DNA of 64,000 bases from Marivivens donghaensis (lineage in GTDB: Bacteria; Pseudomonadota; Alphaproteobacteria; Rhodobacterales; Rhodobacteraceae), in NCBI RefSeq assembly GCF_011806565.1, contig NZ_JAATOP010000003.1, forward strand, positions 248,001 through 312,000, read 5' to 3'. Every line of letters starts with the position of its first letter. Position 1 is the stretch's first letter. Below are positions 1,519 through 24,914 of this stretch, in pieces. The position numbers were made by a program, and so were the translations under genes. Below the pieces are notes generated by a model. It had not been told where the DNA came from. It did no database searches and saw only the letters and a list, made by a program, of their open reading frames with translations.

Positions 1519-1530
1519 CCTGCGCAGCGT

Positions 1531-5659: not shown

Positions 5660-6868
5660 TTACAGATCCATCAGCAGGCGGCGCGGATCCTCGAGGGCTT
5701 CCTTGACGCGGACGAGGAAGGTCACGGCGCCTTTGCCGTCGACGATGCGGTGGTCATACGACAGGGCGAGGTACATCATCGGGCGGATGACGACCTGACC
5801 GTTGATGGCCATCGGACGGTCCTGAATCTTGTGCATGCCGAGGATGCCCGACTGCGGAGGGTTCAGGATTGGCGAGGACATCAGCGAGCCGTAGACGCCG
5901 CCGTTCGAGATGGTGAACGAACCACCCTGCATTTCGGTCATCGAGAGCTTGCCGTCACGGGCGCGGGCGCCTTTTTCTGCAATCGCCTTTTCGATCTCGG
6001 CGAAGGACATCTGGTCGGCATCCATGATAACCGGAACAACGAGGCCGGTCGGGGTGCCTGCGGCGATGCCCATGTTGACATAGTTCTTGTAGACGATGTC
6101 GGTGCCGTCGATTTCGGCGTTTACTTCCGGGACTTCCTTCAGCGCGTGAATACATGCCTTGGTGAAGAAGGACATGAAGCCGAGCTTGACGCCGTGCTTT
6201 TTGAAGAACAGGTCTTTGTATTCGTTCCGCAGGGCCATCACCTCGGTCATGTCCACCTCGTTGTAGGTGGTGAGCATGGCGGCGGTGTTCTGGCTGTCCT
6301 TCAGACGCTTGGCGATGGTCTGGCGCAGACGGGTCATCTTCACGCGTTCTTCGCGCGATGCCTGATCGGCCGCAACCGGTGCACGCGGCGCAGCAGCCGG
6401 AGCCGGTGCAGCGGCTTTGGGTGCGTTGATCGCGTTCAGCACGTCTTCTTTCATGATGCGGCCGTCTTTGCCGGAGCCTTTGACGTCGGCGGGCGAGACA
6501 TTGTTTTCGGCCATCAGCTTTTTGGCGGACGGGGCGTCTTCGGTGTCTTTACCGCCCGAGGACTGCGGAGCGGCGGCCGGAGCAGCCGGAGCCGGAGCGG
6601 CTTCGGACGCGGGAGCGGCAGCAGCGCCTTCGCCTTCGGTCAGGGTCGCGAGAAGGGCGTCGACACCAACGGTTTCGCCTTCGGCGGCGACGATTTCACC
6701 CAGAGTACCGGCGGTGGGCGACGGGACTTCGACGGTGACTTTGTCGGTTTCGAGTTCACACAGCATTTCGTCGACAGCGACTTTATCGCCCGGCTTCTTG
6801 AACCAGGTTGCGACGGTGGCCTCGGTGACGCTCTCACCCAGGGTGGGCACGCGGACTTCGATGCTCAT
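5660..6868 (-). CDS. sucB: 2-oxoglutarate dehydrogenase E2, dihydrolipoyl succinyltransferase
   Basis: The 402-residue E2 transfers succinyl from lipoamide to CoA. An N-terminal lipoyl domain has the modified Lys in [14 protein letters not shown] (about residue 43). An Ala/Pro-rich linker follows, then the peripheral-subunit-binding segment (about 117-152, [20 protein letters not shown]), another linker, and the catalytic domain ending in [12 protein letters not shown], whose His and Asp (about 371 and 375) are catalytic. There is a single lipoyl domain, as usual for SucB. The start lies three bases past the sucA stop, so the two are translationally coupled. Confidence 0.97.
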
Positions 6869-6871
6869 GGT

Positions 6872-9829
6872 TTATTTCCCTTCGATGGTCAGGGCCTCGT
6901 TAACGAGGGCTTCCTGTTGAGCTTTGTGTTGCGAGGCCAGGCCCGTTGCGGGCGAAGCCGATGCGGCGCGGCCGACGTAGACCGGACGCTTGTGAGTGGC
7001 GTTGATGCGGGTCAGCACCCATTCGATGTTCGGTTCGATGAACGACCAAGCACCCTGGTTGCGCGGCTCTTCCTGACACCAGACCATTTCGGCGCCTTTG
7101 AAGCGCTCGAGCTCGGCGATCAGCGACTGGGCAGGGAACGGGTAGAACTGTTCCAGACGCATCAGGTAGACATCGGTGATGCCGCGGGCGTCACGCTCTT
7201 CGAGGAGGTCGTAGTAGACCTTGCCCGAGCACATGACGACGCGCTTGATCTTGTCGTCGGCGACCAGCTTGGTGTCCGAGTGACCGCGTTCCGCGTCATC
7301 CCACAGGATGCGGTGGAAGGACGAACCGGTGGTGAAGTCCTCGGCGTCCGAGATGCAGAGCTTGTGGCGCAGCAGCGACTTCGGCGTCATCAGCACCAGC
7401 GGCTTGCGGTAGTTGCGGTGCATCTGGCGGCGCAGGATGTGGAAGTAGTTGGCCGGAGTCGAGCAGTTCGCAACGATCCAGTTGTCACCACCGCACATCT
7501 GCAGGAAGCGCTCGAGGCGGGCGGAGGAGTGCTCCGGCCCCTGACCTTCGAAGCCGTGCGGCAGAAGGCAGACGAGGCCCGACATACGCAGCCACTTGCT
7601 TTCGCCCGACGAGATGAACTGGTCGAACATGATCTGGGCGCCGTTGGCAAAGTCGCCGAACTGGGCTTCCCACATGACAAGCGCATTCGGTTCGGCCAGC
7701 GAGTAGCCGTATTCGAAGCCAAGTACCGCGTATTCCGACAGCATCGAGTCGATGACTTCGTAATGAGCCTGACCCTCGCGGATGTTATTCAGCGGGTAGT
7801 AGCGGTCTTCGGTCTTCTGGTCGATCAGGCCCGAGTGACGCTGCGAGAACGTACCGCGGGTGGCGTCCTGACCCGAAAGACGGACGGGGTAGCCTTCGAG
7901 CTGGAGCGAACCGAAGGCCATCGCCTCGGCGGTTGCCCAGTCGTAGCCCTGACCGGTTTCGAACATCTTCGCTTTGTTTTCCAGCTGGCGGGCAACGGTG
8001 CGGTGGATGTTGAAGTCTTCGGGGTAAGAGGACAGTGCCTTACCGATTTCCTGAAGGGTCTTTTCTTCAATCGCGGTTTTGCCGCGCTGGTACTTGCCCT
8101 CTTTTTCGCGGTCCATGTGGGACCAGCGACCGTCGAGCCAGTCAGCCTTGTTCGGCTTGTATTCCTTGGCCGCCTCGAACTCGTCGTTCAGGTTCGCTTG
8201 GAACTGGGCCTTCATGTCTTCGATCTCGCCCTCGGGGATGAGACCGTCGGCAACCAGACGTTCGGTGTAAAGCTGGAGCGTCGTCTTGTGACGCTTGATG
8301 TTGTTGTACATCGCCGGGTTGGTGAACATCGGCTCGTCGCCTTCGTTGTGACCGAAGCGGCGGTAGCAGAAGATGTCGATGACAACGTCTTTGTGGAACT
8401 TCTGGCGGAATTCGGTCGCGACCTTGGCGGCGTGGACAACAGCCTCCGGATCATCACCGTTCACGTGGAAGATCGGTGCTTCGACCATCAGCGCGATGTC
8501 GGTCGGGTAGGGCGACGAACGCGAGAAGTGCGGCGCGGTGGTGAAGCCGATCTGGTTGTTGACGACGATGTGGATCGTGCCGCCGGTGCGGTGACCTTTG
8601 AGGCCCGACAGACCGAAGCATTCCGCTACAACGCCCTGACCTGCAAAGGCGGCGTCGCCGTGCAGCAGGATCGGCAGAACGGTTTCGCGGGTCATGTCGT
8701 TGCGCTGGTCGGTCTTGGCGCGGGCCTTGCCGAGCACAACGGGGTTCACTGCTTCGAGGTGCGAGGGGTTCGCGGTCAGCGACAGGTGAACCTTGTTGCC
8801 GTCGAATTCGCGGTCGGATGAGGCACCGAGGTGGTACTTCACGTCGCCCGAACCATCGACGTCCTCGGGCTTGAACGAGCCGCCCTGGAATTCGTTGAAG
8901 ATCGCGCGGTAGGGTTTGTTCATCACGTTGGCCAGAACCGACAGGCGGCCGCGGTGCGGCATACCGATAACGATGTCCTGAACGCCCAGAGCGCCGCCGC
9001 GTTTGATGATCTGTTCCATCGCGGGGATGAGAGCTTCACCACCGTCCAGACCGAAACGTTTCGTGCCCATGAACTTGACGTGGCAGAACTTCTCGAAGCC
9101 CTCAGCCTCTACGAGCTTGTTCAGGATCGCCTTGCGGCCGTTCTGGGTGAAGGTGATTTCCTTGCCGAAACCTTCGATGCGTTCCTTCAGCCAGCCGGCT
9201 TCCTCGGGGTTCGAGATGTGCATGTACTGGAGCGCGAAGGTGCCGCAGTAGGTGCGACGGACGATCGCCATGATCTCGTTCATCGTCGCGACTTCGAGGC
9301 CGAGCACGTTGTCGATGAAGATCGGGCGGTTCATGTCGGCATCGGTGAAGCCGTAGGTCTTCGGATCAAGCTCCGGATGCACGGTCTGATCGCGCATGTT
9401 CAGCGGATCGAGGTCGGCGATCAGGTGGCCACGGATACGGTAGGCGCGGATGATCATCAGCGCGCGCAGCGAGTCGGTCACGGCAGCGCGGACTTGCTCT
9501 TCCGAGATCTCGACGCCCTTTTCAGCGGCTTTCTTCTTGATCTTGTCGCCTGCGGCCTTGGTGTCTTCGGGCCACTGGCCGTCAAGCGCGGCAACGAGGT
9601 CTCCACCCGGAGCGGGCGGCCAGTCGTTGCGGGCCCACGACGGACCGGCTGCTTCGGCTTTGGCATCCGATGCGCTGTCGCCAAGGGCGGCGAAGAACTC
9701 GCGCCAAGTCTCGTCTACGGCGTTCGGGTTGTCGGAATATCGCGCGTAAAGCTGCTCGATATACTCGGCGTTATGCCCCTGCAGGAAGCTCGAAGCATGG
9801 AACTGGTCGTTAGGGCTTTGGTCGTTCAT
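6872..9829 (-). CDS. sucA: 2-oxoglutarate dehydrogenase E1
   Basis: The 985-residue thiamine-diphosphate enzyme decarboxylates 2-oxoglutarate and succinylates the lipoyl group of SucB. It begins with the short E1o N-terminal tail (FLQGHNAEYIEQLYARY) that docks to partner subunits. IGMPHRGRLSVLANVM, the ThDP/Mg segment HGDAAFAGQGVVAE (about 390-403) and NNQIGFTT are all present, and the C-terminal half holds QFGDFANGAQ and LPHGFEGQGPEHSS. Length is typical. It belongs to the sucC-D-A-B block driven from the paired operators at 12884-12914. Confidence 0.97.
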   Translation of the reverse strand: MNDQSPNDQFHASSFLQGHNAEYIEQLYARYSDNPNAVDETWREFFAALGDSASDAKAEAAGPSWARNDWPPAPGGDLVAALDGQWPEDTKAAGDKIKKKAAEKGVEISEEQVRAAVTDSLRALMIIRAYRIRGHLIADLDPLNMRDQTVHPELDPKTYGFTDADMNRPIFIDNVLGLEVATMNEIMAIVRRTYCGTFALQYMHISNPEEAGWLKERIEGFGKEITFTQNGRKAILNKLVEAEGFEKFCHVKFMGTKRFGLDGGEALIPAMEQIIKRGGALGVQDIVIGMPHRGRLSVLANVMNKPYRAIFNEFQGGSFKPEDVDGSGDVKYHLGASSDREFDGNKVHLSLTANPSHLEAVNPVVLGKARAKTDQRNDMTRETVLPILLHGDAAFAGQGVVAECFGLSGLKGHRTGGTIHIVVNNQIGFTTAPHFSRSSPYPTDIALMVEAPIFHVNGDDPEAVVHAAKVATEFRQKFHKDVVIDIFCYRRFGHNEGDEPMFTNPAMYNNIKRHKTTLQLYTERLVADGLIPEGEIEDMKAQFQANLNDEFEAAKEYKPNKADWLDGRWSHMDREKEGKYQRGKTAIEEKTLQEIGKALSSYPEDFNIHRTVARQLENKAKMFETGQGYDWATAEAMAFGSLQLEGYPVRLSGQDATRGTFSQRHSGLIDQKTEDRYYPLNNIREGQAHYEVIDSMLSEYAVLGFEYGYSLAEPNALVMWEAQFGDFANGAQIMFDQFISSGESKWLRMSGLVCLLPHGFEGQGPEHSSARLERFLQMCGGDNWIVANCSTPANYFHILRRQMHRNYRKPLVLMTPKSLLRHKLCISDAEDFTTGSSFHRILWDDAERGHSDTKLVADDKIKRVVMCSGKVYYDLLEERDARGITDVYLMRLEQFYPFPAQSLIAELERFKGAEMVWCQEEPRNQGAWSFIEPNIEWVLTRINATHKRPVYVGRAASASPATGLASQHKAQQEALVNEALTIEGK

Positions 9830-10698: not shown

Positions 10699-11586
10699 TT
10701 AGCCGTTCTGGATCGCTTTCATCACGGCTTCGCCCAGAGTAGCGGGGCTGTCTGCAACTACGATACCGGCCGACTTCATGGCTTCGATCTTGTCTTCAGC
10801 GCCGCCTTTGCCGCCTGCAACGATCGCACCGGCGTGGCCCATGCGGCGTCCCGGAGGTGCGGTACGGCCAGCGATGAAGCCAGCGGTCGGCTTCCAACGG
10901 CCCTTCTTGCGCTGCTCGGCGAGGAACTCGGCTGCGTCTTCTTCAGCCGAACCACCGATTTCACCGATCATGATGATTGCTTCGGTTTCCGGATCGTCGA
11001 GGAACATGTCGAGGACGTCGATGTGCTCGGTGCCCTTGATCGGGTCGCCGCCGATGCCGACAGCAGTCGACTGGCCGAGGCCCATGTCGGTGGTCTGCTT
11101 CACAGCTTCGTAGGTCAGGGTGCCCGAACGGGACACAACGCCGACCTTGCCGCGCTTGTGGATGTGACCCGGCATGATGCCGATCTTGCAGGCGTCAGGG
11201 GTGATGACGCCCGGGCAGTTCGGGCCGATCAGGCGCGACTTGGAGTCGATCAGCGCGCGCTTCACCTTCATCATGTCGAGAACCGGAATGCCCTCGGTGA
11301 TGCAGATGATCAGTTCCATTTCGGCGTCGATAGCTTCGAGGATCGAGTCAGCCGCGAAGGGCGGCGGGACGTAGATCACCGATGCGTTGGCTTCGGTCTT
11401 CGCCTTGGCTTCGTGAACCGAGTTGAAAACCGGCAGGCCGAGGTGATCCTGACCGCCCTTACCGGGGGTCACACCGCCAACCATCTTGGTGCCGTATGCG
11501 ATTGCCTGTTCCGAGTGGAACGTACCCTGCGAGCCGGTGAAGCCCTGACAGATGACTTTGGTATTTTCGTCTACGAGGATTGCCAT
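10699..11586 (-). CDS. sucD: Succinyl-CoA synthetase alpha subunit
   Basis: The 295-residue alpha subunit binds CoA and carries the phospho-histidine intermediate in succinyl-CoA + ADP + Pi <-> succinate + ATP + CoA. The CoA-binding Rossmann segment begins at [35 protein letters not shown] and the [20 protein letters not shown] loop with the active His are present. The start is five bases past the sucC stop, so the two are coupled. Nucleotide preference (ATP or GTP) cannot be read from the sequence. Confidence 0.97.
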
Positions 11587-11591
11587 AATTC

Positions 11592-12785
11592 TTAGCCCTT
11601 CACCGCTTTAACGATTTTCTCTGCGCCGTCCGACAGGTTGTCGGCTGCGATGACGTTAAGGCCGGAGGTGTTGATGATCTCTTTGCCCTTCTCGACGTTG
11701 GTGCCTTCGAGGCGAACGACGAGCGGAACCTGAAGACCGACTTCCTTGACCGCAGCGACAACGCCCTCAGCGATGACGTCGCAACGCATGATGCCGCCGA
11801 AGATGTTGACGAGGATGCCTTTGACGTTCGGGTCAGAGGTGATGATCTTGAACGCTTCGGTCACTTTCTCTTTGGTGGCGCCGCCACCTACGTCGAGGAA
11901 GTTTGCCGGCTCTGCGCCGTAGAGCTTGATGATGTCCATGGTGGCCATAGCCAGACCAGCACCGTTCACCATACAGCCGATTTCACCGTCGAGAGCGATG
12001 TAGTTCAGGTCGTACTTGGACGCCTGAAGTTCCTTCGGGTCTTCTTCGGTTTCGTCGCGCAGTTCGGCGATGTCCGGCTGGCGGTAGATCGCGTTGCCGT
12101 CGAAGCCGAGCTTGGCGTCGAGGACCTTGAGCGAACCGTTGGTCATGACGATCAGCGGGTTGATCTCAAGCATCTCCATGTCTTTTTCCATGAAGGCTTT
12201 GTAGAGAATGCCCATCAGCTTGACGCATTCCTTGACCTGCGAACCTTCGAGGCCGAGGGCAAATGCGATGCGGCGGCCATGGTAGGCCTGGTAGCCGGTG
12301 GCCGGATCGACGGAGAACGAGAGGATTTTCTCGGGGGTCGACGCTGCAACTTCCTCGATGTCCATGCCGCCTTCGGTCGAGCAGACGAAGGAGACGCGCG
12401 ACGATACGCGGTCGACCAGCAGGGCGAGGTACAGTTCGCGTTCGATGTCCGAACCGTCTTCGATGTAGATGCGGTTCACCTGCTTACCAGCCGGACCGGT
12501 CTGGTGGGTGACGAGGGTCTTGCCCAGCATCTTCTTGGCTTCTTCGGCGGCCTCTTCGACCGACTTGGCCAGGCGCACGCCGCCCTTTTCGCCAGCTTCG
12601 GCTTCCTTGAAGGAGCCTTTGCCGCGTCCACCTGCGTGGATCTGGGCTTTGACGACCCAAAGCGGACCGTCAAGTTCGCCTGCTGCCGCCTTGGCATTTT
12701 CGGCCTTCAGTACGGCACGGCCTTCCGAGACCGGAGCGCCGTAGCTGCGCAGGAGCGCCTTGGCCTGATATTCGTGAATGTTCAT
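11592..12785 (-). CDS. sucC: Succinyl-CoA synthetase beta subunit (ADP-forming type)
   Basis: The 397-residue ATP-grasp subunit starts [20 protein letters not shown], the standard SucC N-terminus; an upstream in-frame extension to 12830 is not family-like. GAG-rich [21 protein letters not shown] and the C-terminal [18 protein letters not shown] loop are conserved. A GAGG ribosome-binding site lies eight bases before ATG 12785. It is the first gene of the suc block and has a 170-bp leader containing two TGTGATCACA palindromes. Confidence 0.97.
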
Positions 12786-12847: not shown

Positions 12848-12872
12848 CGACAAACTTAGCTGTTTGCGGTAA
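12848..12872 (-). promoter_or_regulatory. TTACCGC / TTTGTCG block in the sucC leader
   Basis: On the minus strand TTACCGC (12872-12866) and TTTGTCG (12854-12848) follow the paired operators. The same two words follow the operators of sdhC at 20753-20759 and 20774-20780. TTGTCG could be a -35 element, but I cannot see a convincing -10 at matching distance in both. Confidence 0.4.
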
Positions 12873-12883
12873 AACCCGACATT

Positions 12884-12914
12884 TGTGATCACAGTTTTTC
12901 TGGGTGTGATCACA
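12884..12914. promoter_or_regulatory. Paired TGTGATCACA operators upstream of sucC
   Basis: Two exact copies of the 10-bp palindrome (12884-12893 and 12905-12914) have centres 21 bp apart, two turns of the helix. They lie about 100 bp upstream of the sucC start. The same pair with the same spacing precedes sdhC, and a single copy precedes the gntR gene at 1550. The spacing would put two dimers on one face of the DNA. Confidence 0.78.
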
Positions 12915-12955
12915 AATTTCACTCGCCCTTGTTCTTTAGGATATAAAGAATCAAA

Positions 12956-13621
12956 TCAGCGGTTGGGGCGGGCGATGAAAAGGACCTGACCTCGGGGCAA
13001 CATCACGGGCTGTCCGGTGATGCTCCAGTCGGTTACGGACCCCAGATGGTCGATATCCGTTTCCAGAACATGATAGGGCGCACGGATGTCGTGTGTGACC
13101 ACACCGTCAGGCTGACGATAGGGGCGCGTCGAAGCGACGGCATCGGGGGCCAGAAAGACGGTGAAGAGGAACTGCTCCAGCGCGGGAAAGCGGGACAGGT
13201 TCATAAGCGCGCGGCGCAGGAACGCGATCGGCAGGTGCGGGAAGACCGCGAAGGCGATGGCGTGGGTGATTTCGGCGGGGACGCGCGGAAAATCGAAGGT
13301 CGCGTCCTGAATCAGGTGGCTCTTGCGCAGCGCGGTGGGGTCTTCGAGTTCTTTCGCGTGACCCGCCAGCATGATGTCGCGGGAAAAGTCGGTCGCCCAG
13401 TAGTGGCCGCTTTCCAGATACGGGACCGCCTTGCAGCCGAGCCGCAGCGAGCCCGCACCGATATCGAGGAGATGGTGGTGAGGCAGCAGACCCGCCTCAC
13501 GCAGGATGCCCATCTGGGCACGTCCGGTTTCATCCCAACGCCCGCCGACGATGTCGCGGTGCTTTCCGTCGGCGATGGCCCGATCATAGAAACCAGGCGT
13601 CTCGTAGGGCGAAACCGGCAT
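12956..13621 (-). CDS. Class I SAM-dependent methyltransferase
   Basis: The 221-residue protein has the motif I sequence LLDIGAGSLRLGCKAVPYL (about 47-65), the SAM-binding glycine loop of class I methyltransferases, and TDFSRDIM as the probable acidic motif II. The start MPVSPYETPGFYD at 13621 lies five bases past the pepT stop; longer in-frame starts run through pepT and are rejected. The substrate is unknown. The C-terminal region (GQVLFIARPNR) closes a normal beta-strand. It is probably co-transcribed with pepT. Confidence 0.78.
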   Translation of the reverse strand: MPVSPYETPGFYDRAIADGKHRDIVGGRWDETGRAQMGILREAGLLPHHHLLDIGAGSLRLGCKAVPYLESGHYWATDFSRDIMLAGHAKELEDPTALRKSHLIQDATFDFPRVPAEITHAIAFAVFPHLPIAFLRRALMNLSRFPALEQFLFTVFLAPDAVASTRPYRQPDGVVTHDIRAPYHVLETDIDHLGSVTDWSITGQPVMLPRGQVLFIARPNR

Positions 13622-13626
13622 TCGCG

Positions 13627-14862
13627 TCAGCCTTTGACAGCGCGTTGCGCGATGGTGAGGCAAAGCTCTGTCGCGCGGGCCATGTCCTGAACCGAAACCC
13701 ATTCGAGCGGGCCGTGGATGTTCTGCATCCCCGTGAACAGGTTGGGGCAGGGGACGCCCATCTCGGTCAGGCGCGAGCCATCGGTGCCGCCGCGGATCGG
13801 AACGGATTTGGGATTGAGGCCCAATTCCTTCGCCGCTTCGGTCGCGAGGTTGACGGGCGTCATGTCCTTTTCCAACCAGTAGCGCATGTTGCGGTACTGG
13901 GGGCTGATTTCGCAAGTAATCTTGGCGCGGGGTTCGGTCGCGGCGACGGCGTTACACACGTCGCGGATCATCTGGCCCTTGGCCTCCAGTCCGTCGAGTT
14001 CGAAGTCGCGGATGATGACGCGGACGGTCATTTCCGAGCTACCGCCGTTCATATCGACCACATGGACGAAACCTTCGCGGCCCGAGGTCGTCTCGGGCGT
14101 CATCGCCCATTGCGGCAGGGTCTGCACGATCTTCGACGCGAGATGTGTGGCGTTGACCAGCTTGTCCTTGGAGAAACCGGGGTGGATCGAAACGCCGGTG
14201 ACTCTGATCTCTGCACCGTCGGCAGAGAACGTCTCGAATTCGATCTCGCCAAGGCGACCGCCGTCGAAGGTATAGGCCCAATCGACGCCAAGTTCGTCGG
14301 GCAGGCGCGGATCGACGCCGCGACCGACTTCTTCATCGGGGGTGAAGGCCACGCGGATTTTGCCGTGCGGAATGTCCTTGTTTTCCAGCATGTGACGGGC
14401 GGCGGCCATGATGATGGCAACGCCGGCCTTATCGTCAGCGCCGAGCAGCGTGAGGCCCGACGCGGTGATCAGGTCGTCGCCGACTTTTTCGGCCAGATAA
14501 GGGAACTGGTCGGGCGACATCGACAGGTCGGGATTGTCGGGGAAAGTGATGGTGCCGCCGTTGTAGCCTTTGATCACACGAGGCTTCACGTTGGTCGCGT
14601 TGAACTGCGGCGCGGTGTCGACGTGCGCAAGGAAACCAATGGTCGGGCCTTCGGCTGTGGCGGGGATGGTCGCCAGCACGACGCCGTATTCGGTGATCGT
14701 CACGTCCTCTGCGCCGATTTCGGTCAGCTCGTCACGCAGCAGGTTTAGCATCCCGAACTGGATGTCGGTGGACGGCTGGGACATGCTGTCGATGTCGGAC
14801 TGGCTATCAATTGCAGCATAGCGGCAAAGGCGGGTTTCGAGTTCGTCTGTAAAGTTCGTCAT
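13627..14862 (-). CDS. pepT: Peptidase T (tripeptide aminopeptidase)
   Basis: The 411-residue M20-family zinc enzyme releases N-terminal residues from tripeptides. LAHVDTAPQFNATNVKP carries the first metal-binding His-Asp, LLGADDKAGVAIIMAA the bridging Asp, and FTPDEEVGRGVDP the catalytic Glu pair. The dimerisation segment and the C-terminal PIRGGTDGSRLTEMGVPCPN with NIHGPLEWVS complete the site. Length matches PepT. It lies downstream of mdh, separated by a terminator, so it likely has its own promoter. Confidence 0.95.
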   Translation of the reverse strand: MTNFTDELETRLCRYAAIDSQSDIDSMSQPSTDIQFGMLNLLRDELTEIGAEDVTITEYGVVLATIPATAEGPTIGFLAHVDTAPQFNATNVKPRVIKGYNGGTITFPDNPDLSMSPDQFPYLAEKVGDDLITASGLTLLGADDKAGVAIIMAAARHMLENKDIPHGKIRVAFTPDEEVGRGVDPRLPDELGVDWAYTFDGGRLGEIEFETFSADGAEIRVTGVSIHPGFSKDKLVNATHLASKIVQTLPQWAMTPETTSGREGFVHVVDMNGGSSEMTVRVIIRDFELDGLEAKGQMIRDVCNAVAATEPRAKITCEISPQYRNMRYWLEKDMTPVNLATEAAKELGLNPKSVPIRGGTDGSRLTEMGVPCPNLFTGMQNIHGPLEWVSVQDMARATELCLTIAQRAVKG

Positions 14863-14946
14863 GGAAATCTCCTATTGCCCGAAGATCTGCGCCCGAGAGG
14901 CGCGTGTGTCAACGCAGGGCCTGCACATGTCCGTCTGCAAAAGCAA

Positions 14947-14972
14947 AAGGGCGACCCGTGGGCCGCCCTTCG
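14947..14972 (-). terminator. mdh terminator
   Basis: On the minus strand AAGGGCGGCCC and GGGTCGCCCTT pair around a short loop and are followed by TTTTGCTTTT. It lies 21 bases past the mdh stop. Confidence 0.78.
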
Positions 14973-14992
14973 TATTCGGTGCTGCGCGGCGA

Positions 14993-15970
<978 letters not shown>

Positions 15971-16079
15971 TTAAGGTTGAGGTCGGGGCATGGCGTAGCC
16001 CTTTCGTTGCGTGCAATCAAGTACACGAAGGGGTAAGGCGACATTGTTCCTATATCGCTTGGGGTGTTTGCGCTAAACT

Positions 16080-16097
16080 TGTGCATACAATTGCACA
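16080..16097. promoter_or_regulatory. TGTGCA-N6-TGCACA inverted repeat
   Basis: A perfect inverted repeat with a TACAAT spacer lies in the 200-bp gap between the divergent mdh and tauE genes, 58 bp before tauE. It has TGTG/CACA arms but not the GAT core of the suc/sdh operators. It may bind a regulator of either gene. Confidence 0.4.
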
Positions 16098-16155
16098 CAA
16101 TGGCGTTCCGCATGAGGTGTATCAGCGGTTCTGTGATTCTTTTTAAAGGTAAATT

Positions 16156-16905
16156 ATGGACGGTACGGCATTTTGGATCGTCTCGGTCATCGCTGCGATC
16201 AGCGTCGGACTGAGTAAAGGGGGACTTGCCGCGCTGGGGACGATTGCCGTGCCTGTCATGGCTCTGGCGATTGATCCGGTCGTCGCTGCGGGCCTGCTTC
16301 TGCCGGTGTTCGTGGTGTCGGACATCTTCGGCGTGTGGACCTACCGCAAGCATTTCGACAAGCAGGTTCTCATCATATCCATCATCGGCGGAACAGTCGG
16401 CGTTGTGATCGGCGGCCTGCTGGCGTCGGTTGTGTCCGAGCATGTCGTGACGCTGTTCGTCGGCCTCATCGGTGTGCTGTTCGCCCTGAACTTCATCCTC
16501 AAACGCGGGGCAGAGGTCGAGGCGGAGCCGCTGAGTAAACCGAAGGGCTATTTCTGGACCGCCATTGCGGGCTTCACCAGCTTCGTCAGCCATTCGGGCG
16601 GTCCGCCGTATCAGATGTTCGTGCTGCCGCTGAAGCTGCCGAAGATGGTGTTTGCGGGCACTATCACGCTGGCCTTCGCCTACATCAACGCGATCAAGCT
16701 GATCCCCTACGCGATGCTAGGGCAGATCAACCTGCACAGCCTCGGCGTCAGTGCGATCCTGATGGTTCCTGCCGTGATCTCGGTCTTTGTCGGGGTGCGT
16801 TTGGTGAAAATCCTGCCGGACAAGATCTTCTACAACTTCGTCATCATCGCGCTGGGTATCGTGTCGCTCAAGCTCGTCTATGACGCCATCATGGCGATGA
16901 TCTAA
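16156..16905 (+). CDS. TauE/SafE-family membrane permease
   Basis: The 249-residue protein has about eight predicted membrane helices and opens with AISVGLSKGGLAALGTIAVP, the glycine-rich first repeat of the TauE/SafE (DUF81) family. The second repeat starts near GFTSFVSHSGGPPYQMFVLP. Members export or import sulfite, sulfoacetate or other small anions; the substrate here is not known. A terminator follows at once, so it appears to be a single-gene unit divergent from mdh. A second, longer paralogue is at 36320. Confidence 0.88.
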   Translation: MDGTAFWIVSVIAAISVGLSKGGLAALGTIAVPVMALAIDPVVAAGLLLPVFVVSDIFGVWTYRKHFDKQVLIISIIGGTVGVVIGGLLASVVSEHVVTLFVGLIGVLFALNFILKRGAEVEAEPLSKPKGYFWTAIAGFTSFVSHSGGPPYQMFVLPLKLPKMVFAGTITLAFAYINAIKLIPYAMLGQINLHSLGVSAILMVPAVISVFVGVRLVKILPDKIFYNFVIIALGIVSLKLVYDAIMAMI

Positions 16906-16911
16906 AGAAAA

Positions 16912-16934
16912 AGGGCCACCCCGAAGGGCGGCCC
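16912..16934. terminator. Terminator between tauE and PRC gene
   Basis: AAAAAGGGCC-ACCCC-GAAGGGCGGCCCG forms a GC-rich hairpin between two convergent genes, with A-runs to the left and CTCTTT to the right. It probably serves both. Confidence 0.6.
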
Positions 16935-16958
16935 GAACTCTTTAGAAGAGCGCAAAGA

Positions 16959-17684
16959 TTACATTGCGTCTTTTTCGTATTCCGGCATGGAGTTCAGCGC
17001 GTCTTCAGTGGTGTTCATGTACACCTTGATGTCTTCGCCGTCTTCCTGCTTAAGGATGGTCAGTTCGTCGTACGAAACTTCAACCGACTTTTCGCCGATG
17101 CCGAGGAAACCACCTACGTCCATGATAACAGCTTGGATCGAACCGTCTTCGTTCAGGATCAGGTCATCGATCGACGAAACGGTGTCGTTCTCGGCGTTCA
17201 CAACATCAGCGTCGATCAGCTCTTCAGCCGAGAAGTCGCCGCCAGCCATAGAGATTTCGACCCAGCCGTCCATGTAGGCGTTGCCGGTCATCTCGGTGTC
17301 AGCAGCCATACCTACGGTGGCATCTTCTTCCGACATTTCTTCAGCCATGCCGTCCGGCATTGCGTCTGCTTCGGTGTCAGCGGTCAGGTCGGTGCCTGCT
17401 TCGGCGTCCATTTCGGTGTCGGACGACATTTCTTCGTCAGCGCCCATTTCATCGCCCATGCCTTCTTCGGTCGACATCTCGGTGTCGGTCTCGGCATCAG
17501 CGCTCATCTCGGTCGAAGCACCAGCTTCAGCATCCATGTTTTCAGTATCGGCCGAAGTGTCCATGTCAGTCGACATTTCGGTCGATGCTGCGGTGTCGTT
17601 GGTCACGGCGGTGGTGTCGTCTTGTGCAATCGCCGGTACTGCGAGAACAAGTGCAGCGGCGGTGGTCATAAGAAGCTTTTTCAT
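16959..17684 (-). CDS. Secreted PRC-barrel protein with acidic Met/Thr-rich repeats
   Basis: The 241-residue protein has a signal peptide (MKKLLMTTAAALVLAVPAIA) followed by about 110 residues made almost only of Asp, Glu, Met, Thr, Ser and Ala, with recurring TEMS, AD-T-EM and DAEAG words. The C-terminal 90 residues contain the PRC-barrel-like pattern ELIDADVVNAENDTVSSIDD, AVIMDVGGFLGIGEKSVEVS. PRC barrels in secreted alphaproteobacterial proteins are common and poorly understood. The acidic stretch could bind cations. The gene is alone and divergent from the mcl2 gene. Confidence 0.85.
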   Translation of the reverse strand: MKKLLMTTAAALVLAVPAIAQDDTTAVTNDTAASTEMSTDMDTSADTENMDAEAGASTEMSADAETDTEMSTEEGMGDEMGADEEMSSDTEMDAEAGTDLTADTEADAMPDGMAEEMSEEDATVGMAADTEMTGNAYMDGWVEISMAGGDFSAEELIDADVVNAENDTVSSIDDLILNEDGSIQAVIMDVGGFLGIGEKSVEVSYDELTILKQEDGEDIKVYMNTTEDALNSMPEYEKDAM

Positions 17685-17763
17685 AGTGACATTCCTTTAA
17701 ACTCAAGGGGCGGCGCTGTGCCGCTTTGTACCGAGAAAAGCGATGGCGGAATGCTTTGGTTGC

Positions 17764-17777
17764 ATATCAAATTTGAT
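17764..17777. promoter_or_regulatory. TATCAA/TTGATT palindrome between PRC gene and mcl2
   Basis: ATCAAATTTGAT is a perfect 12-bp palindrome lying about 80 bp upstream of the PRC gene start and about 155 bp upstream of mcl2. A similar TATCAA-T-TTGATA occurs upstream of ccr at 30103-30115. It is AT-rich and could be chance. Confidence 0.3.
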
Positions 17778-17855
17778 TTAATGCACGGAACTTTCAACCG
17801 CAGATGGCGTTCACGCGCGCTTCCTTAATATACCTTTCCTGACATCGGTGCTGCG

Positions 17856-17911
17856 TTGCGGCAATTTTTGCGTTGAAGTATTTGTGCGCATTTGTTCTGT
17901 TGCGAGCAACA
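17856..17911 (+). promoter_or_regulatory. TTGC...GCAA palindromes upstream of mcl2
   Basis: TTGC-G-GCAA at 17856-17864 and TGTTGC-GA-GCAACA at 17898-17911 lie 20 to 76 bp before the start of the malyl-CoA lyase-like gene. A very similar 14-bp palindrome, TCTTGC-GC-GCAAGA, stands before ccr at 30086-30099. They are candidate operators for an ethylmalonyl-CoA pathway regulator. Confidence 0.5.
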
Positions 17912-17931
17912 AAGTTGCGAGGTAGAATCAA

Positions 17932-18780
17932 ATGATCGATCGTCCGTTCCGTTCCGCCCTCTATATCCCCGGCTCGAAGGAGCGTGCGCTGGAAAAAGCG
18001 CGCAACCTTCCCGTCGATGCAATCCTGTTCGACCTCGAAGATGCGGTTTCGCCGGACGAGAAAGTCGCCGCGCGCCATACACTGAAGGAGGCGCTCTATC
18101 AGGGCGGCTACGGCAATCGCTATTGCGTCGTGCGGATCAACGGCCTCGATACCGAATGGGGCAGGGACGATGCGACCGAAGTGGTGGAGATGGACTGCGA
18201 CGCCGTCCTGCTGCCCAAGGTCAACAGCCCCGCCGACCTCGACGCGCTGGCGGAGATCACGGGCGATCTGCCGATCTGGGCTATGATTGAAACCCCGCTG
18301 GGGATCATCAACGCCGCCGCCATCGCCGCGCATCCGAAGCTTGAGGGCTTTGTGATGGGTACCAACGACCTCGCCAAGGATCTGAATACGCGCAAAGGCC
18401 AGAACCGCGAGCCGCTGCTCTACGCGCTGGAAGCCGCGCTGCTCGCCGCCCGTGCTTATGGTAAGGTCATCGTCGACGGCGTCTACAACGCATTCAAGGA
18501 CGAAGAGGGCCTAAAAGCCGAATGCGAGCAGGGGCGCGATATGGGTTTCGACGGCAAAACCCTTATCCATCCTGCCCAGGTCGATATCGCGAATGCAGCG
18601 TTTGCACCCAGCGAGGCCGAGGTCGACCTCGCCAACCGACAGATCGCGGCGTTCGAAAAAGCGACTACGAACGGCCAAGGCGTTGCCGTTGTTGACGGAA
18701 AGATCGTTGAAAACTTGCATATCGTCACCGCACGGGCAACACTGTCCAAGGTTGCTGCAATCGCAGCACTGGACCATTGA
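17932..18780 (+). CDS. HpcH/HpaI-CitE family; (3S)-malyl-CoA thioesterase-like
   Basis: The 282-residue protein belongs to the CitE-like malyl-CoA lyase group: RSALYIPGSKERALEKA, the Mg-binding ILFDLEDAVSPDEK (about 32-45), VVRINGLDTEWG, MIETPLGIINA and GFDGKTLIHPAQVD. It is shorter than Mcl1 (about 318 residues in Rhodobacter) and closer in size to Mcl2, which hydrolyses (3S)-malyl-CoA to malate in the ethylmalonyl-CoA pathway. Clustering with mch, ecm and ccr supports a role there, but a lyase function cannot be excluded. A GAGG ribosome-binding site precedes ATG 17932. Confidence 0.85.
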   Translation: MIDRPFRSALYIPGSKERALEKARNLPVDAILFDLEDAVSPDEKVAARHTLKEALYQGGYGNRYCVVRINGLDTEWGRDDATEVVEMDCDAVLLPKVNSPADLDALAEITGDLPIWAMIETPLGIINAAAIAAHPKLEGFVMGTNDLAKDLNTRKGQNREPLLYALEAALLAARAYGKVIVDGVYNAFKDEEGLKAECEQGRDMGFDGKTLIHPAQVDIANAAFAPSEAEVDLANRQIAAFEKATTNGQGVAVVDGKIVENLHIVTARATLSKVAAIAALDH

Positions 18781-18813
18781 TCGGGTCCGTGATTCCCAAT
18801 TTCAGGGGGCGGC

Positions 18814-19359
18814 ATGCTGTTACTCATTCTCGGGCTTCTTTTGTGGAGCCTATCGCACATGCTGCGCCGCATCGCGCCGACCTATCGCGCGGAGCTGGGA
18901 AAGCGGGGCTACCGCATGGTCGCGATCGCGTCGGGCGTCGGGATCGTGCTGATGATCTTCGGCTACCGCGCGTGGGACTCCGGTCAACTCTGGTATCCGC
19001 CTGCGGGCATGCGTCACGTCAACAACCTGCTGATGTTGATCGCGATCTATCTGTTCGCCGCCTCGGGTATGAAGACATGGGTCGCGCGCCGCTTCCGTCA
19101 CCCGATGCTGACGGGCGTCATCGTCTGGGCCGTTGCGCACCTTCTGGTCAACGGAGACTGGGCGTCGGTCGTGCTGTTCGGCGGAATGCTGGTCTGGGCA
19201 CTGCTGGAAATGGCGCTGATCAACCGCGACGAACCGCAGTGGGTTCCGCCGACGGGTGGCTCTGCTGGCAAGGAAATCGGCGCGATCGTGGGGGCCGTGG
19301 TTGTCCTCGGCGTAATCGGCTATATCCACGGTATGCTGGGCTACTGGCCCTTCGGCTGA
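18814..19359 (+). CDS. NnrU family membrane protein
   Basis: The 181-residue protein has about five membrane helices and the family pattern LWSLSHMLRRIAPTYRAELG at the start, with HVNNLLMLIAIYLFAA, ARRFRHPMLTGVIVWAVAHLLVNGD and GMLVWALLEM. NnrU-type proteins are linked to nitric-oxide respiration in some denitrifiers and are related to isoprenoid/carotenoid isomerases (Z-ISO). No denitrification gene is nearby, so the role here is open. It sits 33 bp behind the malyl-CoA gene on the same strand and is probably co-transcribed. Confidence 0.85.
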   Translation: MLLLILGLLLWSLSHMLRRIAPTYRAELGKRGYRMVAIASGVGIVLMIFGYRAWDSGQLWYPPAGMRHVNNLLMLIAIYLFAASGMKTWVARRFRHPMLTGVIVWAVAHLLVNGDWASVVLFGGMLVWALLEMALINRDEPQWVPPTGGSAGKEIGAIVGAVVVLGVIGYIHGMLGYWPFG

Positions 19360-19402
19360 TGCGTCCCGTGGTGGGGCGCGGCCCTACCAAGGATGTATCG
19401 CG

Positions 19403-19606
19403 ATGAAAGCCTACCGCTTCCTCTCCGAGGACGACACTTCTCAATTCTGCCACAAGGTTTCCGAAGCTCTCGCGAAGGGCTGGGAGCTTTATGGCGAGCC
19501 TACCTACGCTTTCGATGCGAGCCGCGGCGTGATGCGCTGCGGGCAAGCCGTCGTGAAAGTGGTGGAGGGCGAATATTCACCTGACATCAAACTGGGACAG
19601 CTATGA
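19403..19606 (+). CDS. DUF1737 small protein
   Basis: This 67-residue protein contains FCHKVSEALAKGWELYGEPT, the DUF1737 signature (a small fold seen in YrzO/DUF1737 proteins), and ends with KVVEGEYSPDIKLGQL. It overlaps the mch start by four bases (ATGA) and so is translationally coupled to mesaconyl-CoA hydratase. Function unknown. Confidence 0.82.
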   Translation: MKAYRFLSEDDTSQFCHKVSEALAKGWELYGEPTYAFDASRGVMRCGQAVVKVVEGEYSPDIKLGQL

Positions 19607-20631
19607 CAAAAACCAATCCGGGACGTTTTTTCGAAGACTATCAGGTCGGGCAGGTCATCCGCCACGCAGTGCCGCGCACCATCGCAGAAGGGGAGCGGGC
19701 GCTGTATCACGCGCTCTATCCGGCGCGTCACGCGCTGTACTCCTCGGACGTATTTGCGGGGGATTGCGGGCTTGAAGGATCGCCAGTCGATGATCTGCTG
19801 GCATTCCATGTTGTCTTTGGCAAAACCGTTCCGGATGTGTCGCTGAACGCGGTCGCGAACCTTGGCTATGCCGAGGGTCGCTGGCTGAAACCGGTCTATC
19901 CGGGCGATACGCTCCGCTCGGAGAGCGAGGTCATCGGCATCAAGCAGAATTCGAACGGCAAAACCGGCGTGGTCTACGTGCGTACGCGCGGTTTCAACCA
20001 GACCGATGAAGTTGTTATGGAGTACGTGCGCTGGGTGATGGTGCGTAAACGGGACGTCGAGGCGCCCGCGCCACAAACCGTGCTGCCGGATTTGAAAAGT
20101 GCTCTTTCGGTGGAAGATCTGGTCATTCCAGAGAGCCTGACGTTCGAAAATTACGATTTTGAGCTGGCGGGCGAGCCGCACCGTTGGGGCGATTACGCGG
20201 TCGGAGAGGTGATTGACCACGTCGATGGCGTCACCGTGGAGGAGGCGGAGCACATGCTCGCCACCCGTCTGTGGCAGAATACCGCGAAGGTGCACTTCGA
20301 CCTGACCTTCCGCCCCGAAGGTCGTTTGATTTACGGTGGTCACGTGATTTCCATGGCGCGCGCGCTGTCGTTTAATGGCCTCGCCAACGCGCAAATGATC
20401 GTTGGCCTGAATGGCGGAGCTCACGCGAACCCGTGTTTCTCGGGCGATACGATCAAGGCGTGGTCGGAAGTGCTGGATAAGGCCGAGACCGACGTCCCCG
20501 GAGTGGGTGCGATCCGTCTGCGCCTCGTCGCGACCAAGGGCGGTACGGCTGGCGAGCTGAAGGGCAAGGATGGCAAGTACCTTCCCACGGTGCTGCTCGA
20601 CCTCGATTACTGGGCGCTGATGCCGATTTAA
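19603..20631 (+). CDS. mch: Mesaconyl-CoA hydratase (beta-methylmalyl-CoA dehydratase)
   Basis: The 342-residue protein consists of two MaoC-like hotdog domains. It opens GRFFEDYQVGQVIRHAVPRT, as in the mesaconyl-CoA hydratases of Rhodobacter and Methylorubrum, with SSDVFAGDCGLEGSPVDDLL in the first repeat and GGHVISMARALSFNGLAN in the second. It interconverts mesaconyl-C1-CoA and beta-methylmalyl-CoA in the ethylmalonyl-CoA pathway. Its length matches the family. It is the last gene of the mcl2-nnrU-DUF1737-mch unit; the gap to sdhC holds the sdh promoter. Confidence 0.92.
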   Translation: MTKTNPGRFFEDYQVGQVIRHAVPRTIAEGERALYHALYPARHALYSSDVFAGDCGLEGSPVDDLLAFHVVFGKTVPDVSLNAVANLGYAEGRWLKPVYPGDTLRSESEVIGIKQNSNGKTGVVYVRTRGFNQTDEVVMEYVRWVMVRKRDVEAPAPQTVLPDLKSALSVEDLVIPESLTFENYDFELAGEPHRWGDYAVGEVIDHVDGVTVEEAEHMLATRLWQNTAKVHFDLTFRPEGRLIYGGHVISMARALSFNGLANAQMIVGLNGGAHANPCFSGDTIKAWSEVLDKAETDVPGVGAIRLRLVATKGGTAGELKGKDGKYLPTVLLDLDYWALMPI

Positions 20632-20711
20632 GGTCGGAAAAACGACGACTTGCATCGCGGATACGGCGCGAGTCGTTTTGTTATTGTGACTAAATCAGTC
20701 AGGAAATATTT

Positions 20712-20742
20712 TGTGATCACACATGCAAAACGTGTGATCACA
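20712..20742. promoter_or_regulatory. Paired TGTGATCACA operators upstream of sdhC
   Basis: Exact palindromes at 20712-20721 and 20733-20742 have centres 21 bp apart, the same spacing as before sucC. TTACCGC (20753-20759) and TTTGTCG (20774-20780) follow, words also found after the sucC pair. The pair lies about 150 bp before the chosen sdhC start at 20888. Confidence 0.78.
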
Positions 20743-20887
20743 AATGCGGTTGTTACCGCTAAATGGTGCAATTTTTGTCGCATATCCCTGTTAGGATAGC
20801 GTGACAGTGCCGTTAAATGCGCTAGAAGAATACCGATGGCCCGCACCCGACTGCGGTGCAATGGCCGAACCGAAAAAGGGGATCGTC

Positions 20888-21274
20888 ATGGCTGGAGAAA
20901 CCAAGGGCGTCGAACGTCCGCTTTCGCCGCACCTGCAAATCTATCGCTGGCAAGTCCCGATGCTGACGTCGATCCTGACGCGCGTCACGGGTAACGCCCT
21001 GATCGTTACGTCCGTTCTGGTCATCTGGTGGCTCGGCGCCGCTGCGACTGGCGAAGAGTATTTCAATACCGTCAACGGCATCATGACTTCGTTCATCGGT
21101 GACATCGTTATGACGCTGTCGGTACTGGGCGTCTGGTATCACTTCCTCGCCGGTCTGCGTCACCTCTATTATGACGCGGGCAAAGGTCTCGACATTCCGA
21201 CCGCTGAGAAGCTGGGTTGGGCCTGTCTGATCGGCTCGGTCGTGCTGACCATTCTTACCGTCATTATCGTCTGA
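20888..21274 (+). CDS. sdhC: Succinate dehydrogenase cytochrome b556 subunit
   Basis: The 128-residue membrane anchor starts MAGETKGVERPLSPHLQIYR; RPLSPHLQIYRW is the SdhC hallmark. Three helices follow, with SILTRVTG for quinone contact and the heme-ligand region GLRHLYYDAGKGL. ATG 20888 is preferred because an AAAAAGGGG ribosome-binding site lies six bases before it; ATG 20861 and a longer form from 20801 are possible. It is first of the sdhCDAB operon, with its leader carrying two TGTGATCACA sites. Confidence 0.93.
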   Translation: MAGETKGVERPLSPHLQIYRWQVPMLTSILTRVTGNALIVTSVLVIWWLGAAATGEEYFNTVNGIMTSFIGDIVMTLSVLGVWYHFLAGLRHLYYDAGKGLDIPTAEKLGWACLIGSVVLTILTVIIV

Positions 21275-21284
21275 GGGGCTGAAC

Positions 21285-21656
21285 ATGCGTTATATCACTG
21301 ATCGCAAGCGCGCCGTCGGCAAAGGCGCCGCAGGTTCGGGTACCGGACACCACTGGTACATGCAGGTCAGCGCCGCCGGCCTCGCATTCATCGTGCCGAC
21401 CTTCATCTATATCTTCGGCAAGGCGCTGGGCAGCGACTACGCGACCGTCCTCGAGACGTTCTCGCATCCAATCCCCGCTATTGTGACCGGCCTGATGATC
21501 ATCTTCGGTCTGCACCACTTCAACCGCGGTTTCGAGACCCTGATGCAGGACTACGCCCGCGGCCACACTCTGAAAATCTCCATCATCCTGATGACCGTAT
21601 TTACCTACGGCCTGATGGCAACGGGCCTGTTCTCGCTCGCGAAACTGGCTCTGTAA
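21285..21656 (+). CDS. sdhD: Succinate dehydrogenase hydrophobic anchor subunit
   Basis: The 123-residue protein has three membrane helices, with GSGTGHHWYMQVSAAGLAFI at the N-terminus, as in alphaproteobacterial SdhD, and HHFNRGFETLMQDYARGH, which includes the Asp-Tyr of the quinone site. It starts ten bases after sdhC. It anchors the SdhAB catalytic dimer to the inner membrane. Confidence 0.94.
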   Translation: MRYITDRKRAVGKGAAGSGTGHHWYMQVSAAGLAFIVPTFIYIFGKALGSDYATVLETFSHPIPAIVTGLMIIFGLHHFNRGFETLMQDYARGHTLKISIILMTVFTYGLMATGLFSLAKLAL

Positions 21657-21668
21657 GGAATAGGACCG

Positions 21669-23477
21669 ATGGCAGCAGCTTACGAATACGAAGTTCACGA
21701 ATACGACGTGGTCGTTGTCGGCGCCGGTGGCGCTGGCCTCCGCGCGACCCTCGGCATGGCCGAGCAGGGCCTGCGCACCGCGTGTATCTCCAAGGTTTTC
21801 CCGACCCGCTCGCACACCGTCGCGGCGCAGGGCGGCATTGCGGCATCGCTGGGCAACATGGGCCCCGATAGCTGGCAATGGCACATGTACGACACCGTAA
21901 AAGGGTCGGACTGGCTCGGTGATACCGATGCAATGGAATACCTCGCCCGCGAGGCCCCCAAGGCCGTTTACGAACTGGAGCACTACGGCGTTCCGTTCTC
22001 GCGTACCGAGGAAGGCAAGATCTACCAGCGTCCGTTCGGTGGCCACACCACCGAGTTCGGCGAAGGCCCGCCCGTACAGCGTACCTGCGCAGCCGCCGAC
22101 CGTACCGGCCACGCGATCCTGCACACTCTTTATGGCCAGTCGCTGAAGCAGCAGGCAGAATTCTACATCGAATACTTCGCCATCGACCTCATCATGAGCG
22201 ACGACGGCGTTTGCACCGGTGTTGTCTGCTGGAAGCTCGACGATGGCACCATGCACGTCTTCAACGCCAAGATGGTCGTTCTGGCCACCGGCGGTTATGG
22301 CCGTGCGTATTTCTCGGCGACTTCGGCCCACACCTGCACCGGTGACGGTGGCGGTATGGTTGCCCGTGCCGGCCTCGCACTTCAGGACATGGAATTCGTT
22401 CAGTTCCACCCGACCGGCATCTACGGTTCGGGCTGTCTGATCACCGAGGGCGCACGCGGCGAGGGTGGTTATCTGACCAACTCCGAAGGCGAGCGCTTCA
22501 TGGAGCGTTATGCGCCGCACTATAAAGACCTCGCGCCGCGTGACTACGTGTCCCGCTGTATGACGATGGAAATCCGCGAAGGCCGCGGCGTGGGCAAGGA
22601 TGGCGATCACATCCACCTGCACCTCAACCACCTTCCGGCGGAAGCTCTGGCAGAACGCCTGCCGGGTATTTCGGAGTCGGCAAAGATCTTTGCGGGCGTC
22701 GACGTCACCAAAGAGCCGATCCCGGTTCTGCCGACCGTTCACTACAACATGGGCGGCATTCCGACCAACTACTGGGGCGAAGTGCTGAACCCTACCGCCG
22801 ACAACCCGACCGCTACGGTTCCGGGCCTGATGGCTGTCGGCGAAGCTGGCTGTGCTTCGGTCCACGGTGCGAACCGTCTGGGTTCGAACTCGCTGATCGA
22901 CCTCGTGGTCTTTGGCCGCGCTGCTGCGATCCGCGCCGGTCAGGTTGTCGACCCGACCAAGGCCAACCCAACGCTCAACAAGGCCGCTGTCCAGAAGGCG
23001 TTCGACCGTTTCGACGGCCTGCGCTACGCACAGGGCGGCACGCCTACCGCAGAACTGCGTCTCGAGATGCAGAAGACCATGCAGCGTGACGCTGCCGTCT
23101 TCCGTACTGCCGAGACCATGAAGGACGGCGTCGAGGCGATGACTGCTATCGCGGGCAAGCTGAACGATCTGCACGTCACCGATACCTCGCTGGTATGGAA
23201 CTCCGACCTGATGGAGACGCTGGAGCTGACGAACCTCATGCCGAACGCTCTGGCCACCATCGTTGGTGCCGAAGCCCGTCACGAGTCGCGCGGTGCCCAC
23301 GCTCACGAGGATCACCCGACCCGTGACGACGAAAACTGGCGCGTCCACTCGGTCATGCGTGTCGATGGCAACAACGTCGATCTGACTTACCGGCCGGTCA
23401 TCGTTGATCCGCTCACCACCGAAGGTGAGGGCGGTATCAGCCTCGAGACCATCGCTCCGAAGGCACGTACCTTCTGA
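21669..23477 (+). CDS. sdhA: Succinate dehydrogenase flavoprotein subunit
   Basis: The 602-residue catalytic subunit oxidises succinate to fumarate. [14 protein letters not shown] (18-31) binds FAD, and His49 in [11 protein letters not shown] is the covalent flavin link. [21 protein letters not shown] and the active-site Arg in PRDYVSRCM are present. The C-terminal [16 protein letters not shown] and LTYRPVI complete the family. Length is normal. Its stop overlaps the start of the small lipoprotein gene (TGATG). Confidence 0.97.
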
Positions 23478-24134: not shown

Positions 24135-24914
24135 ATGGTCCAATTCTCCCTTCCCAAGAACAGCCGCATGACGGTGGGCAAGACCTGGCCCAAGCCTGAA
24201 GGCGCGACCAACGTCCGCAAGTTCCAGATCTACCGCTGGAACCCCGATGACGGGAAGAACCCCGCGATCGACACCTACTTCGTCGACATGGACGATTGCG
24301 GTCCGATGGTTCTCGACGCTCTCATTTACATCAAAAACAAGGTCGACCCGACCCTGACGTTCCGCCGTTCGTGCCGTGAAGGCATCTGCGGTTCGTGCGC
24401 GATGAACATCGACGGTCGCAACACGCTGGCCTGTATCTATGGTCTCGACGAGATCAAGGGCGACGTGAAGATCTACCCGCTGCCGCACATGCCGGTGGTC
24501 AAAGACCTCATCCCCGACCTCACCCACTTCTACGCGCAGCACGCGTCGATCATGCCGTGGCTGGAAACCAAGACGAACCGTCCCGAAAAGGAATGGCGTC
24601 AGTCGATTGAGGACCGCAAAAAGCTCGACGGTCTGTATGAGTGCGTGATGTGCGCCTCGTGCTCGACCTCGTGCCCGAGCTACTGGTGGAACAGCGACAA
24701 GTACCTCGGCCCGGCCGCGCTGTTGCACGCCTACCGCTGGATCATCGACAGCCGCGACGAAGCCACCGGCGAGCGTCTGGACGATCTGGAAGATCCGTTC
24801 AAGCTGTACCGCTGCCACACCATCATGAACTGCGCCAAGACCTGCCCGAAGGGTCTGAACCCCGCAGAGGCAATCGCCAACATCAAGAAGATGATGGTCG
24901 AGCGTCAGGTCTGA
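24135..24914 (+). CDS. sdhB: Succinate dehydrogenase iron-sulfur subunit
   Basis: The 259-residue subunit carries electrons from FAD to quinone. Cysteines for the three clusters are visible: [14 protein letters not shown] and NTLAC for [2Fe-2S], [13 protein letters not shown] for [4Fe-4S], and [17 protein letters not shown] for [3Fe-4S]. The [17 protein letters not shown] segment contributes the Trp of the quinone site. A terminator follows. Confidence 0.97.

Follow-up and report, generated by a model that had tools for sequence, protein, structure and literature searches.

Paired palindromes at two helical turns upstream of sucC and sdhC in Marivivens donghaensis and other Rhodobacteraceae: predicted operators of the GntR-type regulator AkgR

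Introduction

How two separate operons of the tricarboxylic acid (TCA) cycle might come under a common regulator is the question raised by a stretch of 64,000 nucleotides from Marivivens donghaensis (contig NZ_JAATOP010000003.1, positions 248,001 to 312,000), here called the window. Two copies of a 10-bp palindrome, TGTGATCACA, stand upstream of sucC and another two upstream of sdhC, and a gntR gene begins at 1550. A preliminary description of the window had proposed a shared regulator for the suc operon (succinyl-CoA synthetase and 2-oxoglutarate dehydrogenase) and the sdh operon (succinate dehydrogenase), with that gntR gene as the candidate. The boxes are very probably (about 93%) operators of the regulator AkgR encoded at 1550, with the paired upstream sites activating sucC and sdhC and a single box limiting akgR itself. 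The sequence of the boxes, their spacing, targets and conservation, their linkage to the regulator gene and the gene order in Cereibacter johrii are observed here, and the activator role and the motif come from the literature on Rhodobacter sphaeroides; from these we infer binding in M. donghaensis, co-operativity, the sign of the regulation and the autorepression. The AkgR regulon as such is known and is found here in another genome; what is added is the strict two-turn spacing, the specificity for certain genes, the linkage of sites and regulator across the family, and a likely self-operator.

The boxes and their spacing

The window holds five exact copies of TGTGATCACA, which as palindromes are given no strand: the predicted AkgR sites at 12884-12893 (proximal to sucC) and 12905-12914 (distal to it), those at 20712-20721 (distal to sdhC) and 20733-20742 (proximal), and a single box at 1532-1541, a putative autoregulatory operator that ends 8 bases ahead of the start codon of the gntR gene. 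Dinucleotide-preserving shuffles of the window gave a mean of 0.05 copies and none of 100 reached five, in line with the preliminary count of five and its estimate that chance would give well under one. With up to one mismatch, seven boxes are found against a shuffle mean of 1.49. All five exact boxes contain GTGATCAC. The whole genome (3,334,067 bases on 24 contigs) has six exact copies, five of them in the window, and the sixth, at C17:1854-1863, lies inside an open reading frame of 485 amino acids that, read by eye, looks like a flagellar FliF-like protein. Both pairs have the same N11 gap, 21 bp from centre to centre, just as had been described, and they are separated from the start codon by 98 bases at sucC and by 145 bases at sdhC.

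The preliminary description had named, among others, two findings that would speak against such operators, namely that the pair is common before unrelated genes or that it is not conserved in relatives, and neither was encountered in a sample of 198 Rhodobacteraceae genomes that includes the window's own. Exact pairs, with gaps from 1 to 31 bp admitted, are present in 120 of the 198, with no occurrence of a reversed control pattern among the matches listed, and an N11 pair with at most three mismatches is present in 168, commonly twice per genome, against 11 genomes for a half-turn control spacing (N16, at most three mismatches). In a draw of 289 genomes across the class, exact pairs were found in six, which are all four marked family members (the window's own genome being one of them) and two of the 285 others. 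For 88 exact pairs the position relative to genes was determined: 75 among the matches listed in the family scan, five from four named genomes and eight from the class draw, among them the window's own sucC and sdhC pairs. Among these, 66 stand upstream of sucC and 16 upstream of sdhC, hence 82 of the 88 placed pairs listed. The remaining six have gaps of 5, 11, 12, 14, 17 and 21 bp, and no SucC or SdhC match was found downstream of them within the stretch examined.

The gap in the 82 suc and sdh pairs is N11 in 71 and N10 in 11, and no other gap occurs, though any from 1 to 31 was allowed, so that the fixed spacing of 20-21 bases looks like a design rule of the family. These pairs end 95-190 bases ahead of the start codon, with start codons in relatives extrapolated from the window's proteins. 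Their outer flanking bases are mostly T on the left (61/82) and A on the right (71/82), and the inner ones are mostly C or G (70/82 and 72/82). Few of the exact pairs have a third box (at least 8 of 10 bases) 20 or 21 bp away, with two cases upstream among the 82 and none downstream. Three AkgR-type boxes in a 21-bp register were seen before sucC of Rhodobacter calidifons (L214, 12609-12660). Another genome carries three exact boxes with gaps of 5 and 17 (G125:C6:303624-303675; L199, 1225-1276) without an adjoining SucC or SdhC match, the only such cluster among the 88 placed pairs listed.

In the mechanism that we propose, each palindrome would be bound by one AkgR dimer, and boxes 20 or 21 bp apart would place two dimers on one face of the helix, about two turns from each other. 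The pairs would lie ahead of the sucC and sdhC core promoters, some 45-60 bp before the likely -35 element where this can be placed, and would help to recruit RNA polymerase, and with a single box within the likely akgR core promoter AkgR probably limits its own synthesis.

Linkage of the pairs to the gntR gene

The gntR gene (1550-2200, plus strand) encodes a transcription factor of 216 amino acids with the Pfam domains GntR and FCD, here called P0001. A match to it at E <= 1e-25 is found in 184 of the 198 family genomes, and an exact pair is present in 120 of these 184 and in none of the 14 others (Fisher p = 1e-6). When genomes with strong orthologues (E <= 1e-75, the next best genome being at 3.4e-58) are set against all others, an exact pair or N11 near-pair is found in 172 of 175 of the former and in 4 of 23 of the latter (Fisher p about 9e-20, from a table assembled by hand, and a guide only, as the genomes are related). 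The targets of the pairs, their conservation and the way they follow the orthologue strongly support a regulator common to the suc and sdh operons, and the gntR gene at 1550 is by a wide margin the best candidate for it, as the preliminary description had suggested, though it gave the regulator no name. A looser search with P0001 in the 23 genomes without a strong orthologue returned mostly distant GntR proteins, and two of these genomes, G109 and G157, contain discontinuous akgR-like pieces (with stop codons in G157, which is 80% complete) and have no pair.

Identity of the regulator

For the comparison with R. sphaeroides, RSP_0981 and AkgR are presumably one protein. The abstract of Imam, Noguera and Donohue (mBio, 2015) reportedly states that AkgR directly activates TCA-cycle genes. 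In the passages available of PMC4344238, the GntR protein RSP_0981 is the predicted regulator of sucCD (succinyl-CoA synthetase), sdh and sucAB-lpd in R. sphaeroides, and the locus numbers RSP_0981, RSP_0974-6 and RSP_0967-62 are given for regulator and targets. Excerpts of PMC6365646 describe AkgR of R. sphaeroides as a transcriptional activator with GTGATCAC among its reported sites.

The orthology of P0001 to RSP_0981 rests on C. johrii as a stand-in for R. sphaeroides, of which it is a close relative, and the reaction-centre L protein of R. sphaeroides, used as a query, is 100% identical in C. johrii. There, the P0001 orthologue has 79% identity (E 1.7e-103, the next match at 1.4e-19), and the gene order is akgR, then sdhB, sdhA, sdhD and sdhC, then sucC, sucD and sucA, such that akgR adjoins sdhBADC and lies within 10 kb of sucC. 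The order agrees with that of the RSP locus numbers, as far as the excerpts of PMC4344238 give them, and thus fits the orthology. Both sdhC and sucC of C. johrii are preceded by an N11 pair with one changed base each. The arrangement differs from that in the window, where akgR and sdhC are about 19 kb apart with the suc operon between them, and where akgR has a box of its own, which akgR of C. johrii lacks.

The regulator encoded at 1550 is almost certainly the known AkgR, and the core of the finding is therefore not new. The locus would belong to the AkgR regulon by its GntR orthologue, its GTGATCAC sites, its suc and sdh targets and the co-occurrence of sites and gene, and it is like the regulon of R. 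sphaeroides 2.4.1, as described in the parts available of its literature, in the GntR family of the regulator, the suc and sdh targets and the GTGATCAC sites. The paired spacing was not found described in the available literature passages on AkgR, the boxes and GntR, which do not cover the primary AkgR report of 2015. The same palindrome GTGATCAC is shared, according to passages of PMC6365646, by the GntR-like PS417_07240 of the deoxyribonate cluster of Pseudomonas simiae, which is 32% identical to AkgR, but belongs to another pathway and has a single palindrome, -47 to -40 relative to the start codon, rather than a fixed pair. For GntR factors of the FadR and HutC subfamilies, double operators have been reported whose two palindromes keep a nearly constant distance; they were read as co-operative in one group of divergons, and it was divergent operons that were surveyed there, in the parts available of PMC4494728, whereas the pairs in the window each appear to serve one operon from upstream. 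The nearest solved structure to P0001 by sequence is that of the HTH-type regulator McbR of E. coli (PDB 4p9f, E = 4.1e-21), which is a structural relative only.

Promoters and the self-operator

In the promoters of relatives, positions resembling a -35 element tend to lie at a certain distance beyond the pair. The best such position is found 45-49 bases after the pair in 21 of 66 sucC promoters (largest bin in 40 base shuffles: 13), and 55-59 bases after it in 7 of 16 sdhC promoters (shuffle maximum 4). The window's sdhC has a putative -35 element GTGACA at 20801-20806 (plus strand), which starts 58 bases after the pair, and a TGAC near this offset is found in 11 of the 16 sdhC promoters. The core-promoter scores of sdhC are somewhat above those of shuffles (7.7 vs 6.1), and at the window's own sucC promoter no clear hexamers were found. 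If these -35 positions are right, the two dimers would sit at roughly -85 to -120, a position that would suit activation. The sucC leaders of relatives have a conserved GGGAC word near the start codon, about 94-100 bases after the pair and in one position bin in 29 of 66, which is perhaps a ribosome-binding or leader element.

A different geometry is found at akgR. The analysis covered 31 akgR loci, namely the 30 best matches to P0001 (the window's own included) and C. johrii, a set that leans towards close relatives, and in 25 of them GTGATCAC lies near the akgR start. The first base of the box follows the first base of a TTGAC by 18 bases in 23 of these 25, and in 18 of the 25 the distance from the start of this TTGAC to the first ATG beyond the box is 34-36 bases. 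In the window, the putative -35 element TTGACC at 1515-1520 (plus strand) shares bases with the stop codon of the YgjP-like gene upstream and starts 35 bases ahead of the A of the ATG, with the box in between. The akgR gene may thus yield a leaderless mRNA from the predicted promoter (1515-1552), and a box over the -10 region of such a promoter would point to autorepression.

It is a tentative idea, with a little less than an even chance, that all this amounts to a geometric code of the family, in which paired boxes at sucC and sdhC provide an activating platform for two dimers and a single box, set between -35 element and start in a leaderless akgR promoter, serves self-repression, the whole being a homeostatic circuit of TCA flux whose regulator and operators are lost together.

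Alternative explanations

Several observations weigh against AkgR acting at the boxes as proposed. Three genomes have a strong orthologue and no pair (G009, G147 and G166, the latter two 73% and 71% complete), and pairs are found without a strong orthologue in G114 (two near-pairs, in a genome rated 100% complete), in G096 (four near-pairs, 77% complete) and in G019 and G033, with a single exact pair in either genome; the contig that carries the sucC pair of G033 also encodes a 50%-identical protein. Six of the 31 akgR loci, that of C. johrii among them, lack the self-operator, a scan for a consensus sigma-70 promoter beside the window's sdhC pair found none, and the sucC core-promoter scores in relatives are no better than those of shuffles (median 6.05 vs 6.1). 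Also, the scan with the reaction-centre L protein returned no locus of R. sphaeroides itself.

The sign of the regulation is where another reading comes closest, as many GntR factors repress, and the pair might be a site at which AkgR represses suc and sdh. This is unlikely, because the 82 pairs end as far as 95-190 bases before the start codon and the best -35-like positions are concentrated 45-59 bases past the pair (21/66 and 7/16), which together place the pair upstream of the core promoter, and AkgR is called an activator in the available passages of PMC6365646. That a regulator other than AkgR binds the boxes is more improbable still. The genome does encode a second GntR-type protein related to P0001, a 37%-identical paralogue on contig C19, and a protein of the CRP/FNR type might also be thought of, but the pairs track the strong orthologue of P0001, a box lies near the akgR start in most akgR loci (the 25 of 31), and four genomes (G015, G081, G123 and G132) have two exact pairs and just one P0001 match at E <= 1e-25. 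Against a CRP-type protein speaks also that the half-sites of the window's boxes abut, unlike those of CRP-type sites, which are 6 bp apart.

Since self-complementary boxes can fold, each pair could finally be an RNA hairpin that acts as a terminator or attenuator, and a terminator-like hairpin was indeed scored on the minus strand over the sdhC pair. There is no T-run after this pair on the plus strand, which is the strand of the gene upstream of sdhC, and the combination of hairpin and T-run on the transcribed strand that characterizes an intrinsic terminator was not found at sdhC, the one locus examined for it, where the hairpin was scored solely on the minus strand. A loop does not need exactly 10 or 11 bases, yet all 82 suc and sdh pairs listed have that, the akgR locus has a single box only, and the pairs track the gene of a transcription factor, all of which makes the hairpin barely credible. 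AkgR binding to paired operators thus remains the preferred reading. It would mean that two steps of the TCA cycle, that of 2-oxoglutarate dehydrogenase with succinyl-CoA synthetase and that of succinate dehydrogenase, can be set jointly in Rhodobacteraceae. The strict spacing of 20 or 21 bp provides a precise search string for the AkgR regulon in unstudied genomes, and the pairs would offer a simple example of helical phasing in a GntR-type activator, the repressors of this family being more familiar.

Neighbouring motifs and genes

On the side of the regulated gene, both pairs of the window are accompanied by a stretch TTACCGCWAA, at 12863-12872 and at 20753-20762. For the LacI-type regulator CceR, the pattern [AGT]GTT-N6-8-AAC[ACT] has been published (passages of PMC4344238), and according to excerpts of PMC11323563 the CceR regulon of R. 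sphaeroides includes succinate dehydrogenase and 2-oxoglutarate dehydrogenase, whereas that of Paracoccus denitrificans does not. The published pattern was found near 3 of 66 sucC pairs (base-shuffled mean 2.7) and near 1 of 16 sdhC pairs (0.6), and as it is at chance level near the pairs in relatives, a fixed composite unit of AkgR and CceR sites was dropped. The looser LacI-type palindrome TTAGCGCTAA, a consensus of our own choice, was found with at least 8 of 10 bases near 20 of the 82 pairs, against about 3.4 in shuffles.

The suc operon is on the minus strand and comprises sucC (11592-12785, succinyl-CoA synthetase beta subunit, NCBIfam NF001913, the match running from the methionine at 12785), sucD (10699-11586, alpha subunit, NF004230), sucA (6872-9829, 2-oxoglutarate dehydrogenase E1, NF006914), sucB (5660-6868, E2, NF004309) and lpd (3694-5082, dihydrolipoyl dehydrogenase, TIGR01350). 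The sdh operon is on the plus strand, with sdhC (20888-21274, succinate dehydrogenase cytochrome b556 subunit, NCBIfam TIGR02970), sdhD (21285-21656, membrane anchor, TIGR02968), sdhA (21669-23477, flavoprotein, TIGR01816) and sdhB (24135-24914, iron-sulfur subunit, NF004616). Between the two operons (17932-20631) lie a CitE-like gene and a mesaconyl-CoA-hydratase-like gene, and the same arrangement is found in the four relatives compared, C. johrii included.

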